Source: a virus. Taken from it: a DNA stretch of 20,767 bases. The stretch is from positions 1 through 20,767 of IMG/VR virus record IMGVR_UViG_3300025151_000381. One strand, given 5' to 3'. A program made the position numbers and the translations under genes. The notes under the pieces were generated by a model, which saw nothing but the letters and a program-made list of their open reading frames with translations, was not told where the DNA came from and made no database searches. This document shows, piece after piece, positions 7,961 to 20,767 of this stretch (within the stretch, counting starts at the first letter, position 1; every line of letters begins with the position of its first letter).

Positions 7961-9193
7961 TTGCCTTCACGTTCTAAAGCCCAACAAAGATTTATGGGTA
8001 TGGTTCATGCTCTTAAAAAAGGAGAAATGAAACCAAGTGATGCCTCACCCGAAGTTAAGAAAGCTGCAGATTCTATGACGAAAAAATCCACAAAAAAGTA
8101 CGCTTCAACTAAACATAAGGGTAAACCAGAACGTGTTTCAAAGGAAGTGGTTAAAAAACTCGGTGAAATGATTAAACAAGAGGTCGCCAAACGAGATTAT
8201 AAGGCAGAATATAAAAAATTTCAATCATCTACAAAGATGAAAAAGTATAGGGCAGAATTAAATAAGTATAATAGACAAAAAGGTACTTATGGTAATGGTG
8301 ATGGTAAAGATGCATCACATAAGGGAGGAAAAATCGTGGGATTTGAAGCACAATCTAAAAATAGAGGAAGAGCTGAAAAGAGTCGATTAAAAAAAGAGAA
8401 TATGGGTAAGCGTTGTACTGTAAAAGAAGTATCAAAGTGGTTAAAAACACTTGAAGAATTTAGATATAGAAAAGTTCGTAATGTTGATGCACGAAGAGTT
8501 GCAGCATTTGTAAATAATGGAATGAACGAAGAGGAATTACCTACAAGTCTACAGAAAAAGTGGGAACACAAAAAATATGGTAGAGAAAAACATTTGGCAA
8601 ACAAATATATTGAAACCATATTAAATGTATCTTTGAAAGAATCCGTAAATGAAAGAAAAAATCCAAAAAGAGAAAGAGCTAAAAAAAGTTTTATAAAAAA
8701 TTTACAAAAAACAGAAAAAACCATTAAAAGAGTTAAACAATTTGCAAAATCAAATGAATGGGGTGCAATTAGTAGTTTTATTGAAGATGACCTTGTATAT
8801 GATATGACCGCTTTAAAAAATGACATTGATACTATTATATCAATGCCAGTTGATGAAGCCACATCTTTAGGAGCTGATATGCTTTTAGGTGGTATAGTAA
8901 GTGTAATTAAAAAAGCAGGTATGAGACCTAAGACAGCTAAAATGATGGGTGGTGGATTTAAAGTCAGTAAAAGAGATAAGGTTGGATTTAAAATTGATGT
9001 TGAGATTCGTGGTATGGATAAAAAGAAAACATTCCCACTACAATTCGAAACTGAAAGAGGTATGTTATACGTAGTGATTAAAAACAAACCAATCAAATTA
9101 GGTAAATACACAATGGTTAGACAGGCAGCTCAAAACTTAAAAAAGGTAGGAACGGCTTTGATTGGTGATAAAGACGTTAAAAGGATAGCATAA
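7961..9193 (+). CDS. DUF3008-type N-terminus fused to several phage modules; head-region protein
   Basis: 410 residues from a TTG start at 7961, supported by AGGAG/GGAG within 7949-7954 and by the family start MPSRSKAQQRFMGMVHAL, which matches the small DUF3008 family (residues 1-60, including STKHKGKPE at 50-58). A basic segment (79-145) follows, with YKKFQSSTKMKKYRAELNK and GDGKDASHKGG, resembling a degenerate module seen in other phage proteins. Next come a helical part (150-224), LKESVNE (225-231), a Lys-rich coil, and a C-terminal beta-rich domain of about 100 residues. The DUF3008 unit is often a stand-alone protein. Its fusion inside a head gene cluster and the ESVNE motif shared with the gene at 6206 suggest a mosaic internal virion protein. 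Function is unknown. Confidence 0.75.
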   Translation: MPSRSKAQQRFMGMVHALKKGEMKPSDASPEVKKAADSMTKKSTKKYASTKHKGKPERVSKEVVKKLGEMIKQEVAKRDYKAEYKKFQSSTKMKKYRAELNKYNRQKGTYGNGDGKDASHKGGKIVGFEAQSKNRGRAEKSRLKKENMGKRCTVKEVSKWLKTLEEFRYRKVRNVDARRVAAFVNNGMNEEELPTSLQKKWEHKKYGREKHLANKYIETILNVSLKESVNERKNPKRERAKKSFIKNLQKTEKTIKRVKQFAKSNEWGAISSFIEDDLVYDMTALKNDIDTIISMPVDEATSLGADMLLGGIVSVIKKAGMRPKTAKMMGGGFKVSKRDKVGFKIDVEIRGMDKKKTFPLQFETERGMLYVVIKNKPIKLGKYTMVRQAAQNLKKVGTALIGDKDVKRIA

Positions 9194-9537
9194 TGATTAA
9201 GTTAAAAAGTTTAATAAAAGAAAATTGTGGGTGTGGGGATAGTTGTTGTTCTACAAAAGAACAAATTAATGAGAAAAAAGAATTTAAAGGTAATCTACAA
9301 ATGATTGCATCAATGAATAAAAAGAAACATGACTCAACGATAGCAAGAATAGAAGTTGCAGATAGATTACCACACAAATCAATGTCACAAGTTTACAACC
9401 ATATTTATAAGTTAGAATTAAATCTAAACTATCCACCAGCGTTAAAAAAGGTTCGTGATTTAGCAGATAAAAATTTATTTAAACTTGTTAAGGGAATGGT
9501 AAGTAATTCCGATGAAGTAATTAAAGCATTAAAATGA
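9193..9537 (+). CDS. Small head-region protein with putative capsid-targeting leader and Cys cluster
   Basis: 114 residues; the start overlaps the previous stop (TAATG). The leader MIKLKSLIKE-N resembles those of the genes at 9534 and 10324 and ends in I-K-E, a gp21-type cleavage site. Directly after it is a cysteine cluster, CGCGDSCC (12-19), then a second I-N-E (25-27). If both sites are cut, a Cys-rich peptide of about 17 residues would be released. The remainder (about 28-114) is a compact, helical, basic domain. T4 internal proteins IPI to IPIII use a short N-terminal leader of this sort for packaging in the head. The analogy is structural, with no homology claimed, and the role is inferred. 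Confidence 0.7.
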   Translation: MIKLKSLIKENCGCGDSCCSTKEQINEKKEFKGNLQMIASMNKKKHDSTIARIEVADRLPHKSMSQVYNHIYKLELNLNYPPALKKVRDLADKNLFKLVKGMVSNSDEVIKALK

Positions 9538-9887
9538 TTAAGTTAAACGAAATACTCAAAGAATCATTACAACTACCAAATGGAAAACAAATCCAAATGG
9601 GTAAAATTTTTACTGGTCAAGGAAAGGCATTTGTAAAAGAAGAAGATTTAAATGAGGAAATAATACCATTATCAAAGTCAGATATAAAAAAGATGGAACG
9701 GGCCTCTCAAAAATTAATTAAAGATTTAGAAACGTTTTTAAAAGTATGGAAGAAAAAACATAAAGTTTCTGTAAGTGATCCCGTTTTGTATGATACTTCT
9801 AAAGAGTGGGAAGGTGTTATACGAGATTTAAAAATTAAATTTGGTGGTTGGTTTGGTTTTGTTTACGATAGTGATTATGTAAAGTGA
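9534..9887 (+). CDS. Small head-region protein with putative capsid-targeting leader
   Basis: 117 residues; its start overlaps the previous gene by 4 bases (ATGA), implying coupled translation. The leader MIKLNEILKE-S is nearly the same as that of the gene before it and ends in L-K-E, fitting the [L/I]-x-E rule for T4 gp21. A second match, L-N-E, sits at residues 39-41 (EEDLNEEII). Between them is a short Gly-containing stretch with KIFTGQGKAF. The mature part would be helical and basic with an aromatic C-terminus (FGGWFGFVYDSDYVK). I do not recognise the domain. Packing into the head followed by processing is an inference from the leader and neighbours. Confidence 0.7.
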   Translation: MIKLNEILKESLQLPNGKQIQMGKIFTGQGKAFVKEEDLNEEIIPLSKSDIKKMERASQKLIKDLETFLKVWKKKHKVSVSDPVLYDTSKEWEGVIRDLKIKFGGWFGFVYDSDYVK

Positions 9888-10323: not shown

Positions 10324-11154
10324 ATGGCAAAGTTAAAAGATATAATCAAAGAAAATTTTTCACTTGTGGGTGGAGTTGTTAGTGTACCTGCAATTGGTGG
10401 TACACCAAGTAAGGGTTTAACCGATATCGTAGAAGATATTTACGGAACAAACTCTGAAAAGGTTTCTGCTAAAGAAATAAAAGAAGCAATGAAAACTTTT
10501 TCTCAGTTAGGTAGAACTTTACAAACAGAAAAGAATTTAAAAGAAATTGCAAATTCTCTATCTACTATTGCAACAAAAGCAAAAACCTACACATTAAGTG
10601 AGACAGAAGATTGGTTTGATAAAGTTACCGTAAATCGTAACATGAAAGAATTAACAAATTTATCAAAATCTTTTAACAAAATTGCATCAGAAGCTCAGTC
10701 TCTACAAGAAAGAATGAGTGCTTTATATGAAGATATGGGACACGTTATTGGTCGTTACTATGAAATAAGTGATGAAGATGACCATCCAGAAGGACATGGA
10801 GAAGAAAATATCGAAGAGGGAGATTACGAAGAGTTCTTCCAAAAGGCAATGGATAAGTTTGGTATTAAATCACCAGCAGAACTTGATGATGATAAAAAGA
10901 AAGAGTTCTTCAATTATGTAGACAAAAACTACAAAGCGAAGTCTGAAGGTAACTTATCTGAAGCAAAATTTGCAGTAAGTTTTGAACTTGGTCAAGGTGG
11001 AGATGGAACTATTATTGTAGATGCATCAGGATCAGGACAGGCAAAGGCAATAGTAGCAAAACAATTAAAAAAAGGTCTAAAGGCAGTTAAAAGTGTAAAG
11101 AGAGTTCAGTCAGGATTTGGAAAACAAATAGATAAGAAACTCGGAGACGACTAA
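10324..11154 (+). CDS. Head-region protein with putative capsid-targeting leader and processed C-terminal domain
   Basis: 276 residues, SD TTAGGAG. The leader MAKLKDIIKE-N matches those of the genes at 9193 and 9534 and ends in I-K-E. A helical region (about 30-150) follows, with an acidic His-containing linker (EDDHPEGHGEENIEEGDYEE). A helical segment (about 165-205) leads to a good gp21-type site, NLSE213-A214. The last 63 residues form a predicted alpha/beta domain with a Gly-rich turn (FELGQGGDGTIIVDASGSG) and a very basic end. Cleavage after LSE would free this basic domain inside the head. The overall pattern fits a prohead core or internal protein. I cannot name a family. Confidence 0.72.
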   Translation: MAKLKDIIKENFSLVGGVVSVPAIGGTPSKGLTDIVEDIYGTNSEKVSAKEIKEAMKTFSQLGRTLQTEKNLKEIANSLSTIATKAKTYTLSETEDWFDKVTVNRNMKELTNLSKSFNKIASEAQSLQERMSALYEDMGHVIGRYYEISDEDDHPEGHGEENIEEGDYEEFFQKAMDKFGIKSPAELDDDKKKEFFNYVDKNYKAKSEGNLSEAKFAVSFELGQGGDGTIIVDASGSGQAKAIVAKQLKKGLKAVKSVKRVQSGFGKQIDKKLGDD

Positions 11155-11522: not shown

Positions 11523-12680
11523 ATGGATGACTTATTGAAAGAAGCCATCGCAGATGCAAAAGCAGTTCGTGAAACAGCTCTTGCTAATGCTAAAATGGCA
11601 CTTGAAGAAGCATTTACTCCACGTTTAAAGTCAATGTTAGCTCAGAAAATTCAACAAGAAATCGAAGATGAAGTTGAAGATGAAGAAGAAGTTTCTGAAA
11701 TCGAAGATGAAGAAGAAGAAGCAGAAGCTGAAGAAGCTCCTGTAGAAGAACCATCTGATGAAGAAGAAGTTTCTGAAGTCGAAGATGAAGTTGAAGATGA
11801 AGAAGAAGTTTCTGAAATCGAAGATGAAGAAATGGAAGACGAAGAAGAAGTTTCTGAAGAATATGAAGATGAAGATACTGAAGATGGTCACGAAGAAGTC
11901 GAAGAAGGTGAATCACATGATGAAGATGAAGAAGAAGTGACTGAAGTTGAAGACGAAGAGGAAGAAGTCGAAGAAGACCTTGACCTTGAATCTATCTTAA
12001 AAGAGCTAGAAGACGAAATCGAAGACGAAGAGGAAGAAGAAATCGAAGAAAACGATGTATCTTCTGATATCGGTGATGCCGATAACAAAGTTGCTGACGA
12101 CGCAGCTGATTCATCTGAAACTGGTGCTCAGGGTCCTGAAGGCGAAGGTTCTGATAAACCTGAAGGTTCAGAAAACTCTGATGACGAAAAAGTTGATGAC
12201 TTGACAGAAGTTGAAGACGAGGGTGAAGAAGTTGAAGAAGATGTCGATTTAGACGAAGTTCTTAAAGCTTTATCCGAAGTTGAAGATGAAGACGAAGACG
12301 GAGACGTGGAAGAAGTTGCTAAACTTAAAAAAGAAGTTTCAGAACATAGAGATGTTGTAAAATATCTACGTTCTAAGCTTAATGAAGTTAACTTATTGAA
12401 CGCTAAATTATTATTCTCAAATAAACTATTTAGAGCGTTTGGTTTAAGTAACGAACAGAAAATGAAAGTTGTTGAGACTTTTGATAGAACTAAGAGTATC
12501 AGAGAGATTAAACTTGTGTACACTACATTAGCAGAGTCTTTCCAAGGCACTCGTGCACCTATCAAAGAATCAAAAGGTTCATCTTCTAAAGCAGTTGCTT
12601 CAACTAAACCAGTTAAAGAAGTAATTACTGAGTCTGATGATATTAAGAACAGATTCAAGAAGTTAGCAAACATAATTTAA
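11523..12680 (+). CDS. gp22: Prohead core scaffold protein, gp22-like
   Basis: 385 residues, SD GGAG. The N-terminus (LLKEAIADAKAVRETALANA, residues 4-23) begins a helical region, and the C-terminal helical domain (about 265-370) includes LFSNKLFRAFGLSNEQKMK. Both fit scaffolds of T4-like phages encoded directly before gp23. Between them lie roughly 220 residues dominated by Glu and Asp in EEEVSEIEDEE-type repeats, far longer than expected for T4 gp22 (269 total). The protein would form the prohead core and be degraded by gp21. Candidate [L/I]-x-E sites include LKE7-A, LEE-A and IKE-S. The coding DNA contains an exact 50-base direct repeat. Codons favour C-ending Asp and GAA Glu, as in the next gene. 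Confidence 0.9.
   Translation: MDDLLKEAIADAKAVRETALANAKMALEEAFTPRLKSMLAQKIQQEIEDEVEDEEEVSEIEDEEEEAEAEEAPVEEPSDEEEVSEVEDEVEDEEEVSEIEDEEMEDEEEVSEEYEDEDTEDGHEEVEEGESHDEDEEEVTEVEDEEEEVEEDLDLESILKELEDEIEDEEEEEIEENDVSSDIGDADNKVADDAADSSETGAQGPEGEGSDKPEGSENSDDEKVDDLTEVEDEGEEVEEDVDLDEVLKALSEVEDEDEDGDVEEVAKLKKEVSEHRDVVKYLRSKLNEVNLLNAKLLFSNKLFRAFGLSNEQKMKVVETFDRTKSIREIKLVYTTLAESFQGTRAPIKESKGSSSKAVASTKPVKEVITESDDIKNRFKKLANII
11664..11830 (+). repeat. Exact 50-base direct repeat within the gp22 acidic region
   Basis: Positions 11664-11713 and 11781-11830 are identical over 50 bases, spaced 117 bases (39 codons) apart, so the reading frame is kept. Partial copies of the GAAGAAGAAGTTTCTGAA core lie at about 11761, 11843 and 11931. 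The repeats encode acidic EDEEEVSEIEDE-like units. Identity at wobble positions indicates recent duplication or recombination, and not just selection for acidity. Confidence 0.9.
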
Positions 12681-16193: not shown

Positions 16194-16682
16194 ATGGCAA
16201 GTAGATTTTGGCCTGTAAAAGATACAGACTTAGCTAAACATTTTAATGATGAGCTTGTAGGTAATTTAACTAAAGATGATTGTAGTATTATCGGACAAGA
16301 AGTTATTTTATATCGTATTGCTCCATATGATACACAAACAAATATGTATGGTGAGGCAGGTGAAACTGGAAAAGTATATAAAGCAGGTGTTAAGTTGTTT
16401 TGTATTATAGATTCACAAGATTTTGATTGGAATACAGATGAATTTGGGCCAGATACAAGACAAGAAGTTACATTTGCATTTCAAAGAGATATGTTGATTG
16501 ATGTAAACTTTAGACCAGATATTGGTGATATAGTGAGTTGGAATGATGGATATTTCGAAATCAACGGAACAAATGAAAATCAATTAATCGGTGGTCAGAC
16601 TGGTAATAATTGGACTATTAGTTGTACTGCACACTTATCAAGAATTAATACACTTAATATTGAGAGAACAAGGGCGTTTTAA
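16194..16682 (+). CDS. gp14: Neck protein, gp14-like
   Basis: 162 residues, with AGGA upstream of the ATG and a one-base stop/start overlap with the next gene (TAATGG). The protein is compact and beta-rich: ILYRIAPYDTQTNMYGEA (about 40-57), then FCIIDSQDF and VTFAFQRDMLIDVNFRPDIG, then IGDIVSWNDGYFEINGTNEN. This fits head-tail connector proteins of the gp14 type in marine T4-like phages. It is shorter than T4 gp14 (256). Its location between gp13-like and gp15-like genes is the T4 order. In T4, gp14 joins gp13 at the neck and provides the docking surface for tail and whiskers. Confidence 0.72.
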   Translation: MASRFWPVKDTDLAKHFNDELVGNLTKDDCSIIGQEVILYRIAPYDTQTNMYGEAGETGKVYKAGVKLFCIIDSQDFDWNTDEFGPDTRQEVTFAFQRDMLIDVNFRPDIGDIVSWNDGYFEINGTNENQLIGGQTGNNWTISCTAHLSRINTLNIERTRAF

Positions 16683-18370
16683 TGGCAAGACAAAAACCAA
16701 TATCACGTAGGGCAAGACGAGATTTACATTCAATAGCATTACGTGAAGATTTTAATAGAGCTCGAGAACTTAGACGAGATAAAGACGACCAAAAGAATTT
16801 ATCAGTTTCTATTTTGGATATGGATAGTGCTATCATGTACTATTTCAATGAAGTTATAAGACCGACTGTAAAAGAAAATAAAGAAACTGTCAAGGTTCCT
16901 GTTTTGTATGCTTCACCAGAACGTTGGGTGAGTATCCAAAAACGTGGATTCATGAGGGACAAAAAACAACAATTAATTGTTCCAGCGATTGTGTTTAAAA
17001 GAACAAGTATAGAAAAAAATGAAAATATACCAATTGATAAATTAGATGCAAATCGTCCTAATAATTTTATGACATTCCAACAAAAGTATTCTCAGAGTAA
17101 TCGATATGACCAATTCAGTAGAACAGTTGGAATTTCACCTAATAAAGAATTTTATAACGTTGTTATTCCTGACTATGTTAATTTAAATTATGAGTTTACG
17201 ATTTGGACAAGTTATATTGACCAAATGAACAAATTGGTTGAACGAATAAATTATACGGATGGTGCATATTGGGGTGAACCTGGTAAGATGAGATTTAGAA
17301 CAGCGATTCAGAATTTTACTGATGCAAGTGAATTAGATGCACAAGAAAGATTAGTAAAGACAACGTTTGAAGTTCAGATGATGGGGTATATCATACCTGA
17401 GGAATTTAACAATTATGTAACAACAAAAAGACAACTCACACCAAAACGATTGATTTTCAACGTGGATGCTGAGAAAACAAGAGACCAATTGGTTGAGAGT
17501 AAAGAGGAAGGTCAGTCTGTTAGTATACAAGAAACACAAGATTTATTCTCTATAAGTGTTTCTAATCCATTTACTATGACGGCTGGAACTGGTGTCACAT
17601 TATCAAGTAATGGTGCGTCTTTTGATGGTTCTTCGGCTTTAACACAAACCTTTTCTATCGGACAAGATGTTGCAACCACAGCAGATGTTACCTTTGCAGA
17701 AGTTAGTGCCAGTACAATAGTACTCGGTAATCCAACCACTTGGAGTTCTGCAGGAATTAGTGGGAGTCTTTCAGTAACGGGTTCGTTAGTTACCTCTGGT
17801 GATTTAACTGTAAATGGTAATACAACTATTTTAGGTACTTTAACAGCACAAGAATTTCACACAACATTCACCTCAGCATCTATTATATTTGAAAGTGGTA
17901 GCACTAAACTTGGTGATACTGTAGATGATACACACGAAAGAACTGGTAGTATGACGTTAAGTGGTTCATTTAGTTTAAATGGATACCAAGTAAATGAAAT
18001 CAGTAATGATACTGCTTTAACAGACCAAAGTTCTACAGCTCTTGTTACAGAATATGCAGTAAAACAATATGGTGGAAGTTTAACTACTGACCAATCATAT
18101 TTAAGAAAACAATTTCATAAAACCGCGACCACAATTCTAAGTAATAATACGGCTAGTTTTAACGCGGTAACTGCATCTGCACCAGCTACATTAACGAGCA
18201 CAAATGAGGGTGATTTTATATTCTTTATCAATGGTCAGTATATGGAACATGATGCTTTGACTGTTGCACAAAGTGGTTCTCAGTTTTTACTACAAGTTGA
18301 TACAGGTAGTATCGGATATTCATTAGAAAGTGATGATGAAATTTTAAGTATCGGTAAATTTAATTCGTAG
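16682..18370 (+). CDS. gp15: Tail terminator gp15-like protein fused to a C-terminal fibre domain
   Basis: 562 residues, one continuous frame. Residues 1-285 look like a T4 gp15-type tail-sheath terminator: MDSAIMYYFNEVIRPTV (47-63), KVPVLYASPERWVSIQK (71-87), then IVPAIVFKRTSI (99-110), with a beta-rich end (VQMMGYIIPEEF, 231-242). T4 gp15 is 272 residues, so the gp15 part alone is full length. Residues 290-562 are Ser/Thr/Gly-rich fibre sequence: FSIGQDVATTADVTF (324-338), repeated TSGDLTVNG-like strands, and a module FESGSTKLGDTVDDTHERTG (403-422). The same domain forms the whole next gene, and both end GKFNS. A hexameric terminator carrying six fibre domains at the neck would be unusual. 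The fusion is seen directly, its function is inferred. Confidence 0.82.
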   Translation: MARQKPISRRARRDLHSIALREDFNRARELRRDKDDQKNLSVSILDMDSAIMYYFNEVIRPTVKENKETVKVPVLYASPERWVSIQKRGFMRDKKQQLIVPAIVFKRTSIEKNENIPIDKLDANRPNNFMTFQQKYSQSNRYDQFSRTVGISPNKEFYNVVIPDYVNLNYEFTIWTSYIDQMNKLVERINYTDGAYWGEPGKMRFRTAIQNFTDASELDAQERLVKTTFEVQMMGYIIPEEFNNYVTTKRQLTPKRLIFNVDAEKTRDQLVESKEEGQSVSIQETQDLFSISVSNPFTMTAGTGVTLSSNGASFDGSSALTQTFSIGQDVATTADVTFAEVSASTIVLGNPTTWSSAGISGSLSVTGSLVTSGDLTVNGNTTILGTLTAQEFHTTFTSASIIFESGSTKLGDTVDDTHERTGSMTLSGSFSLNGYQVNEISNDTALTDQSSTALVTEYAVKQYGGSLTTDQSYLRKQFHKTATTILSNNTASFNAVTASAPATLTSTNEGDFIFFINGQYMEHDALTVAQSGSQFLLQVDTGSIGYSLESDDEILSIGKFNS

Positions 18371-18378
18371 GGAGTAAA

Positions 18379-19233
18379 ATGGCAAAAAATTTATTTCAAT
18401 TTAGAAATCCATTGACATTCTCTGGTTCAAGTGGTTTTACCGTCAATAATGCAGGTGTTAATATAACTGGAGTCGATAGAAAAGATTTCGTTTTCAGTAT
18501 TGGTCAAGATGTATCCTCTACCTCTGATGTGACTTTTAATCAAGTAACACCAGATAAAATTATAATAGGTTCTGTAGATTCAACACATATAGTGTGGACA
18601 GATAAATCTGTTTCTGCTTCTAATGGCACATTGACTCAAACAGCTGGTGAATTTTTTAATATTAGTGGTGATTTAACTGTTCCTAACTTAACATTAACAG
18701 GTGAATTTACAACTGATAAAATAGAGGCACAATTAACTGGTTCGAGTACAATTTTTGAAAGTGGTAGTACAGAGTTTGGAGATACGATAGATGATACTCA
18801 TGAAAGAACTGGAAGTTTATCCATAAGTGGTTCTTTTAGTTTAAATAATTTTTTAGTTGATGAAATTTCTAATGATACTGCAGATGATGGTGGGAGTCAA
18901 ACTGCACTCTCAACTGAAAAGGTAGCTTATAATGCATTTGGTGACCAGACACCTGGATTTGAATTTACGAGAAAGAAATTTGCACATACTGGTAGTTTTG
19001 TAAGTTCCACTACCTCAAGCTTTACTGCTGTAACTGCATCAAAAGTTGAAACATTAGATGGAGTAACTAAACACGATTTTATGTTTTTTAATAAAGGGAT
19101 GTTAATGGAATATGACGCATTAGATATAGAACAAAGTGGTTCAACTTTATTATTAAAAATGAATATTGGTTCAATGGGATATGGATTTGATAATAATGAC
19201 GAAATAGTGGGTTGGGGTAAATTTAATTCGTAA
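18379..19233 (+). CDS. Fibre-like structural protein, paralogue of the gp15 C-terminal domain
   Basis: 284 residues, SD GGGAG directly after the previous stop. It aligns along nearly its whole length with residues 290-562 of the protein before it. NPLTFSGSSGF matches the NPFTMTAGTGV segment, FSIGQDVSSTSDVTFNQV (39-56) matches FSIGQDVATTADVTFAEV, and FESGSTEFGDTIDDTHERTG (126-145) matches the DDTHERTG module. Further matches are EISNDTA, HDFMFFNKG, and the end NNDEIVGWGKFNS. The pattern indicates tandem duplication with loss of the gp15 part in this copy, or capture of a free fibre by gp15. The DDTH module recurs in the fibre gene at 20089. A neck or tail fibre role is inferred. Confidence 0.82.
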   Translation: MAKNLFQFRNPLTFSGSSGFTVNNAGVNITGVDRKDFVFSIGQDVSSTSDVTFNQVTPDKIIIGSVDSTHIVWTDKSVSASNGTLTQTAGEFFNISGDLTVPNLTLTGEFTTDKIEAQLTGSSTIFESGSTEFGDTIDDTHERTGSLSISGSFSLNNFLVDEISNDTADDGGSQTALSTEKVAYNAFGDQTPGFEFTRKKFAHTGSFVSSTTSSFTAVTASKVETLDGVTKHDFMFFNKGMLMEYDALDIEQSGSTLLLKMNIGSMGYGFDNNDEIVGWGKFNS

Positions 19234-19260
19234 ATACCACATTGGTTTTACCATTTGTTG

Positions 19261-19269
19261 ATATTTATA
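19261..19269. promoter_or_regulatory. ATATTTATA element before the small zinc-finger gene
   Basis: This copy of the recurring nonamer lies in the gap after the fibre paralogue, only 3 bases before the ATG at 19273. As a + strand -10 element it would give a leaderless transcript for that gene, or serve the genes from 19532 onward. As a - strand site (TATAAATAT) it would fire against the operon. Function unknown. Confidence 0.35.
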
Positions 19270-19272
19270 AGT

Positions 19273-19563
19273 ATGAGAAAAAGAAGTTGGCCCAATAGAA
19301 AAAATCGTCCGTGTCCTGATTGTGGGAAGATGTTAACATACACAAGAAAAGATACTTTTGATAGGGCAGTAGGTAATAATTCAGTTTGTAAGTCTTGTGC
19401 ACAAATGGACAGAAAACTTACATTAGAAACTATTGAGAAGATGAAACAACCCAAGACCATTGAACACAAGAAGAAAATTTCTCGTAGTATAGAACAATGG
19501 TGGGAAGAACGTAAACAACAAGAGATAAACTATGGCTTTAATAGACAGCAAACAACTAAGTAA
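19273..19563 (+). CDS. Small zinc-finger protein with NUMOD3-like segment (possible homing-endonuclease remnant)
   Basis: 96 residues from the ATG at 19273; a TTG at 19255 would add six residues, with no better SD. The N-terminal part has CPDC (residues 14-17) and CKSC separated by about 25 residues, a Cys4 zinc-binding arrangement. It is followed by TIEKMKQPKTIEHKKKISRS, which resembles the NUMOD3 DNA-binding motif found in GIY-YIG and HNH homing endonucleases, and then a basic Trp-containing tail. No nuclease motif (GIY-YIG or HNH) is present. It may be the DNA-binding remnant of a homing endonuclease inserted among fibre genes, or a small regulator. Its 3' end overlaps the next gene by 32 bases, and its style differs from the Ser/Gly-rich neighbours. 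Confidence 0.7.
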   Translation: MRKRSWPNRKNRPCPDCGKMLTYTRKDTFDRAVGNNSVCKSCAQMDRKLTLETIEKMKQPKTIEHKKKISRSIEQWWEERKQQEINYGFNRQQTTK

Positions 19564-19752: not shown

Positions 19753-20079
19753 ATGGCACAAACCTTTACAAGTGCAGCAACAGGTTCAAGTACGACAATA
19801 ACACCACTTTATACTTGTCCCGCAAGTACAACTGGTGTTGTTCACGCCGTGTATGTGAGTAACATAGATGGAACTAATGATGCTACGTTTAATTTGTCAG
19901 TTAGTGGAAGTGCTAATTTTCAAACAAGAAGATTTTTGATGAAAACCGTTGATGTACCAGCAGATTCAACCGTAGTGTTGGAAAAACCAATTAATTTGGG
20001 AGCGGGGGATAAATTAGAAACTCAAGCTTCCGCCGATAATGATGTTGATGTATTTGCAAGCATATTAGAGATAACATAA
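19753..20079 (+). CDS. Small beta-sandwich virion protein
   Basis: 108 residues, with GGAGG upstream and 2 bases after the previous stop. The sequence runs from TSAATGSSTTITPLYTCPAS through VHAVYVSNIDGTNDATFNL and VPADSTVVLEKPINLGAGDK to a final VFASILEIT strand. This is a recognisable phage structural pattern: TITPLYTCPASTT, then V-N-D-G-T-N, then an AGD turn. From memory it is widespread in marine myoviruses near neck and baseplate genes. It resembles the 162-residue protein at 14508 in the TCPA and N-[IL]-D-G-[ST]-N segments. Function is not known; a decoration or fibre-attachment role is possible. Confidence 0.75.
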   Translation: MAQTFTSAATGSSTTITPLYTCPASTTGVVHAVYVSNIDGTNDATFNLSVSGSANFQTRRFLMKTVDVPADSTVVLEKPINLGAGDKLETQASADNDVDVFASILEIT

Positions 20080-20088
20080 GGGATTTAA

Positions 20089-20767
20089 ATGGCTGATTCT
20101 CTACAAAGACTTGGAATAAACCATCTCAACCATAAACTTAAAGTTAAAAAAGGTGGGATTGAAGTTACTAATGGGAACATTAGTGGTTCTTCTACTACAA
20201 CTGGTTCATTTGGTAGAGTAGAAACTTCTGGTGATATAGTTACTATAAGTGGAAACATAAGTTCAAGTGCCAATATAACAGGTAATATTGTAAATGTAAA
20301 TACAAGAGTTAAAGCTATTGGTTCTTCCGTAGAGTTTGCCGGTGATACATTAGATTTTGTAGATGGTAGTTCTACAAATAGACTTTTCAAAGGAACATCA
20401 GGTGGTTCTTTTGAAGCGTATCACTCAGGTAATAAAAAATTAGAGACATCAACTGATGGTATAACTGTAACTGGAAACATGACCACAACTGGTGATGTAA
20501 TCGTTGCAGGAATAACTTCAAGTGGTGATATAGTAACTCAAGGTGATGTTATAGCACAAAATTATATTGTTAGTTCATCTGTAACCTATATGACACAAAG
20601 TTTTGCTAGTGGTAGTAATATTTTTGGTAATTCTATGGATGATACTCATGTGTTTAGTGGTTCTTTGGATATTACTGGTTCAAACTTTATATCTGGTACT
20701 TTAAATGTACAATCAGAAGGAGTATATTCAAGCTCGACAGCCATTTTTACCAACAATATTACAAATG
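20089..20767 (+). CDS. Tail-fibre-like protein (3' end outside window)
   Basis: 226 residues are visible, beginning MADSLQRLGINHLNHKLKV with GGGA upstream, and the frame is open at the window edge. It consists of short beta repeats of the form TSGDIVTISGNI, TGNMTTTGDVIVAG, SSGDIVTQGDVIAQNYI. Near residues 159-200 is NYIVSSSVTYMTQSF followed by FGNSMDDTHVFSGSLDITGS, the same DDTH module seen in the gp15 fusion and its paralogue. Repeating turns of this type form trimeric beta-helical fibres in phages. It is probably a tail or neck fibre or its assembly-guiding part. The receptor end would be downstream. Confidence 0.82.
   Translation, partial: MADSLQRLGINHLNHKLKVKKGGIEVTNGNISGSSTTTGSFGRVETSGDIVTISGNISSSANITGNIVNVNTRVKAIGSSVEFAGDTLDFVDGSSTNRLFKGTSGGSFEAYHSGNKKLETSTDGITVTGNMTTTGDVIVAGITSSGDIVTQGDVIAQNYIVSSSVTYMTQSFASGSNIFGNSMDDTHVFSGSLDITGSNFISGTLNVQSEGVYSSSTAIFTNNITN

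Follow-up and report, generated by a model that had tools for sequence, protein, structure and literature searches.

Fusion of a gp15-type tail terminator to a fibre in aquatic T4-like phages

Results

Genes and features of the locus

We analysed a viral metagenomic contig of 20,767 nucleotides (IMG/VR record IMGVR_UViG_3300025151_000381), called the window below. Its head and neck gene cluster is T4-like. Terminase, portal and gp23 genes are followed by a gp13-like adaptor, a 162-aa protein and a gene in which a gp15-type domain and a fibre are joined (Table 1). The AlphaFold2 model of the fused protein has a fairly confident core (about residues 42-237) and, beyond a linker of low confidence (238-290), a fibre that is rich in beta structure and stands apart from the core. 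Aligning fused and unfused gp15 copies, we found the TTxKxLTPKKxIF stretch conserved across both. The 162-aa protein takes the position of gp14 without a detectable relation to it; as a gp14 candidate it was rejected, since hhalign against T4 gp14 showed zero similarity.

Table 1. Coordinates of the fused gene, its parts and the neighbouring neck and fibre genes in the window.
Feature	Position	Strand	Basis or remark
Complete fused gene (gp15-type tail terminator and fibre), 562 aa	16682..18370	+	ATG start, one frame, zero internal stops
gp15 / tail sheath stabiliser domain, residues 1-262 (AlphaFold2 core about 42-237)	16682..17467	+	PF16724, hhalign, Foldseek
Putative C-terminal sheath-binding arm TTxKxLTPKKxIF, residues 247-262	17420..17467	+	Alignment and analogy (E217, 812 and Milano terminators)
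Variable linker, residues 263-290	17468..17551	+	Low pLDDT; dN/dS 0.45-0.70 (two comparisons)
Fibre shaft, residues 291-437, short beta strands	17552..17992	+	
Helical module EISNDTxLxDxSxTALVTExAVKxY, residues 438-466	17993..18079	+	Missing from fusions without the downstream paralogue; local divergence hot spot
C-terminal tip domain (..FFINGQYMEHDAL..SIGYxLESDDEI..GKFNS), residues 467-562	18080..18367	+	
Free fibre paralogue, 284 aa, 47% identical to the fused fibre	18379..19233	+	
162-aa neck protein, gp14 position	16194..16682	+	Name positional
gp13-like head-tail adaptor Ad2, 389 aa	15020..16189	+	phrog_211, E=7e-11
Long fibre gene, start only (runs off the window)	20089..20767	+	Homologue of a fibre fused to gp15 elsewhere

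The N-terminal part is a gp15-type tail terminator domain

Residues 1-262 are a tail terminator domain of the T4 gp15 type and belong to that family. Searched with the domain alone, PF16724 scored 27.6 bits, above its curated cut-off of 25, while the whole ORF stayed just under it (22.2 bits, E=9e-5). The same profile matched 20 of 23 relatives at E<=0.01, and hhalign against T4 gp15 gave Prob 94 and E=1e-7. When the AlphaFold2 model was compared with the PDB by Foldseek, ranks 1-6 were all T4 gp15 (E 4e-8 to 6e-7). The gene also lies where gp15 is expected, in the order gp13-like adaptor, 162-aa protein, gp15. A phmmer search of the full ORF against the PDB returned no match and a profile search reached gp15 at E=0.05 only, so structure comparison was needed to arrive at this assignment. 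The initial annotation had called residues 1-285 gp15-like. The family assignment stands, but the conserved domain ends at about residue 262; T4 gp15 is indeed 272 aa long, as was said there. Matches to Ycf9, NLPC_P60 and Sec20 fell below their cut-offs and were taken as chance.

The fusion is conserved and under purifying selection

The window is a metagenomic contig, in which a gene of this kind could in principle stem from chimeric joining of sequences or from a stop overlooked near codon 285. A first scan of IMG/VR gave 276 relatives, of which 80 were kept, and the gp15 part and the fibre lay in a single frame in every one of these 80 loci (78 complete, two cut by contig ends). They come from many metagenomes, and fused relatives range down to about 50% identity. 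Both the unbroken frame that had been claimed for the window and the recurrence of the fusion in related contigs are thus borne out. A related fusion occurs in an independent, cultured phage: in gp057 (463 aa) of Flavobacterium phage immuto, the gp15 part matched at E 5e-91 and the C-terminal tip matched separately at i-E 1e-4. Among close relatives, purifying selection acts on the gp15 domain, the shaft (dN/dS 0.16-0.28) and the tip (0.10-0.18), and the linker is relaxed. The 80 loci, the immuto protein and purifying selection along the whole gene rule out an assembly or frameshift artefact, to which we give virtually no chance.

A widespread group of aquatic T4-like phages has surface-fibre modules on the free end of the protein that should form the ring capping the contractile tail. 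Two of the three relatives found in GTDB genomes sit in Flavobacteriales MAG contigs, a weak hint at the host. One 305-aa ORF (L154) was set aside as a contig-end artefact. We do not favour the idea that the prohead protease cuts the linker, because the IQE of the window linker is not conserved in L006 or L007.

The fibre domain

Modelled alone from 127 sequences, the fibre reached a mean predicted confidence (pLDDT) of 84. This model had no significant fold match in the PDB (best E 0.06); weak matches to the HRP29 tail and to CBA120 TSP4 domains serve as leads only. Three PHROGs named as tail fibres were each matched by one of the 127 members at E<0.01. For the fibre of the window itself, profile searches detected neither a lectin nor an enzyme domain.

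A free fibre paralogue accompanies the long form of the fusion

To relate the fused fibre to the downstream paralogue, we used the 78 complete window-type fusions with sufficient downstream sequence. The paralogue was present in 69/69 loci, not independent of one another, in which the C-terminal part was at least 294 aa (long form) and in 0/9 in which it was at most 265 aa (short form). The short form is without the helical module and has a different shaft, which resembles the neighbouring long fibre gene; it requires at least four changes on well-supported branches of the tree. If the phrase "made without a separate fibritin" in the initial annotation is read as no separate fibre protein, it is not supported, since the window-type long form always came with the free paralogue. 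The paralogues of six relatives (L007, L039, L053, L057, L060 and L079) are about 490-510 aa long, with an added LamG/ConA-like lectin domain (PF13385) as their C-terminal end.

The 29 codons of the helical module diverge sharply among otherwise near-identical phages, as seen from the corresponding region of L004 and L005. Between the window and L004, dS is 0.63 in the module, against 0.04-0.09 in the gp15, shaft and tip domains. This pattern suggests local recombination at the module.

Fused and unfused copies of gp15

Six contigs, of 94, 101, 132, 132, 165 and 216 kb and not known to be complete, encode a contractile sheath; in each of them the fused gene is the only gp15 found. In 15 of the first 80 loci, the fused gene comes immediately after an unfused gp15 of 258-278 aa. 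Such tandem copies are nested in at least four separate places of the tree, which means repeated origin or homogenisation by gene conversion. In the lineage of the window, it is the 162-aa neck protein that stands next upstream, and a second gp15 is absent there.

Different fibres occupy the C-terminus of gp15

Within the clade, at least five different fibre modules are found on the gp15 C-terminus. Neither these other fusions nor the second, unfused gp15 of many relatives had been noted in the initial annotation. One of the modules, type B, is a domain of ~195 aa; in L167, L170 and L172 it has its own gene, which follows immediately on an unfused gp15 (about 32-52% identity). Another is a domain ending in LGxLG..DLGDGF. 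A fibre of ~615 aa is joined to gp15 in the contigs L264 and L265, at the same junction in both. In six contigs (L174/L186, L185, L187, L189, L190 and L198), a fibre of ~820 aa brings the gp15 protein to 1086-1187 aa. The ~820-aa fibre is a free gene in most relatives, normally encoded nearby; free counterparts are known for this fibre, for the ~615-aa fibre and for the type B domain. In the window, the homologue of the ~820-aa fibre begins at 20089; over 100 aa it shares 83% identity with a 1219-aa protein of L005, which in turn is homologous to the C-terminal part of L174 (L251). In this clade, the gp15 C-terminus is probably a general docking port into which lineages swapped different fibres. 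A weak PF03497 match in the N-terminal part of a relative's long fibre (18.5 bits, cut-off 25) was taken as chance.

Two small genes stand in the fibre cluster. A 102-aa protein (19255-19563; MRKRSWPNRKNRPCPDC..) has a weak zinc-ribbon match and recurs among the fibre genes at the same place in relatives. A 108-aa phrog_1276 protein (19753-20079) is likewise recurrent in the relatives' fibre cluster.

Discussion

In the solved contractile tails of E217 (PMC10329688), 812 (PMC12886913) and Milano (PMC10491603), the terminator sends its C-terminal strand outward to complete a beta-sheet in the uppermost ring of the sheath. By analogy, the TTxKxLTPKKxIF stretch is a candidate sheath-binding arm, and a fibre placed after such an arm would emerge on the outside at the tail-neck junction. 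The model that we favour, and hold to be reasonably probable, builds on the fusion and its conservation, the gp15 homology and fold, the single copy in long contigs, the diversity of modules and the paralogue linkage. The gp15 domain would form a hexameric ring atop the tail, its conserved arm would clip into the outer side of the top sheath ring, and the flexible linker would project the fibre outward at the tail-neck junction. There the fibre would most likely co-assemble with the free paralogue, for example as mixed trimers, such that six anchored chains would seed several fibres. These would form a collar round the neck and serve as accessory adhesins or hold longer fibres. The ring of fibres and the adhesion or fibre-retraction apparatus of the initial annotation are hypothetical.

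An unfused gp15 could instead be the terminator, with the fused copy a separate neck or tail accessory protein; genomes like that of the window would then keep an unfused copy elsewhere. The unfused genes directly upstream of the fused one, nested in several places of the tree, agree with such a division of labour. However, the sheath-bearing contigs of 94-216 kb carry the fused copy only, and in the window lineage the 162-aa protein stands upstream with no second gp15, which makes this division quite improbable. A lone fused gp15 beside a sheath gene argues that the fusion does the terminator's job and that the fibre should sit at the tail-neck junction. Probably, therefore, it is the fused protein that terminates the tail; in genomes that also have an unfused gp15, it may instead play an accessory part. 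As for what the fibre does there, neck decoration that lends stability is common in phages (PMC10491603, PMC12886913). The fused fibre might accordingly be a collar of purely structural use, giving the tail-neck joint stiffness or protection as the Milano collar or the decoration proteins of phage 812 do, and bind no host. That the window fibre itself has no detected lectin or enzyme domain fits such a brace. Against it stands the LamG/ConA-like domain on the paralogue of six relatives, which favours adhesion. The modules are also swapped and locally variable, and in other lineages they comprise the ~615-aa and ~820-aa fibres, all of which suits adhesins better than a brace; we consider a purely structural collar unlikely.

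Co-assembly of the fused fibre with the paralogue is the part of the favoured model that meets the strongest competitor. The linkage of helical module and paralogue would fit an assembly of the two through the module. A single recombination event that removes both could likewise explain each case: recombination through shared shaft repeats would delete them together, and the link would have no function. The shaft of the short forms, which differs and resembles the adjacent long fibre gene, speaks for such deletions, as does the concentration of divergence at the helical module. If module and paralogue were uncoupled, however, long forms lacking the paralogue would also be expected, and none was seen among the 69 loci, which are not independent. 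We give this reading a substantial chance, though not the better one. A broader proposal is that in this clade fibres are mounted chiefly on the terminator, rather than on the baseplate or gp13. The fibres of the locus, among them the ~820-aa one whose gene stands free in the window lineage, would attach to the port at the terminator's C-terminus, by a covalent link in some lineages and without one in others, and host recognition may begin at the neck. We put this forward tentatively and think it rather doubtful.

The comparison with T4 shows both kinship and difference. The window protein shares with T4 gp15 (PF16724, PHROG 227) the family, the fold and the place in the neck cluster after gp13. 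Unlike it, the window protein does not end without a fibre at 272 aa but adds a linker and a 270-aa fibre. The whiskers and collar of T4, made of fibritin (wac), would be comparable in place, as fibres round the neck. Fibritin, however, is a separate coiled-coil trimer with a C-terminal foldon, whereas the window fibre is beta-rich and a covalent part of gp15; profile searches detected no similarity of the window fibre to fibritin. T4 whiskers bind domain III of gp13 (PMC12270204), so anchoring here would differ from theirs. An older account has a fibritin loop touching gp15 (PMC3004832).

Among other phages, immuto gp057 (NC_055915) combines a gp15 domain and a related tip in one protein of a cultured phage; its C-terminal part is much shorter (about 146 aa past the gp15 match), and it is annotated as a hypothetical protein. 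A 450-aa ORF of Vibrio phage phi-pp2 likewise has gp15 with a long repetitive C-terminal extension, but the repeat is different and looks unrelated, and a separate wac gene lies upstream. Adhesin-type domains at the neck are also reported for the neck passage structures of 936 lactococcal phages, which carry carbohydrate-binding modules (PMC6669499), and for the collar spikes of XM1. The accounts present these as neck proteins in their own right, with no place in the terminator.

Long gp15 proteins occur unremarked in GenBank and BFVD. In the literature that we searched, which covers few subscription journals, a tail terminator with a built-in fibre is undescribed, and a proteome of immuto was not found. 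If true, the favoured model would mean a neck whose terminator and fibres are built as a single polypeptide. Unfused pairs, tandem copies and several fused modules would then make up a natural series from which neck-fibre attachment can be worked out. The fusions also predict which free fibre proteins of relatives dock at the neck, and immuto, a cultured member with a related fusion, makes direct imaging of the virion possible.

Other genes in the window

The window edge cuts a gene at 2-328, leaving the C-terminal end of a protein that looks LamG-like by eye and has a weak DUF4983 match. Three adjacent proteins (9193-9537, 9534-9887 and 10324-11154) have similar starts, MIKLKSLIKEN, MIKLNEILKES and MAKLKDIIKEN. 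We take these starts to be possible capsid-targeting leaders ending in an (I/L)xE protease site, comparable to those of T4. Between the protease and gp23 lies a protein with long acidic repeats (11523-12680; EVEDEEEVSEIED..), which by its position is probably the scaffold.
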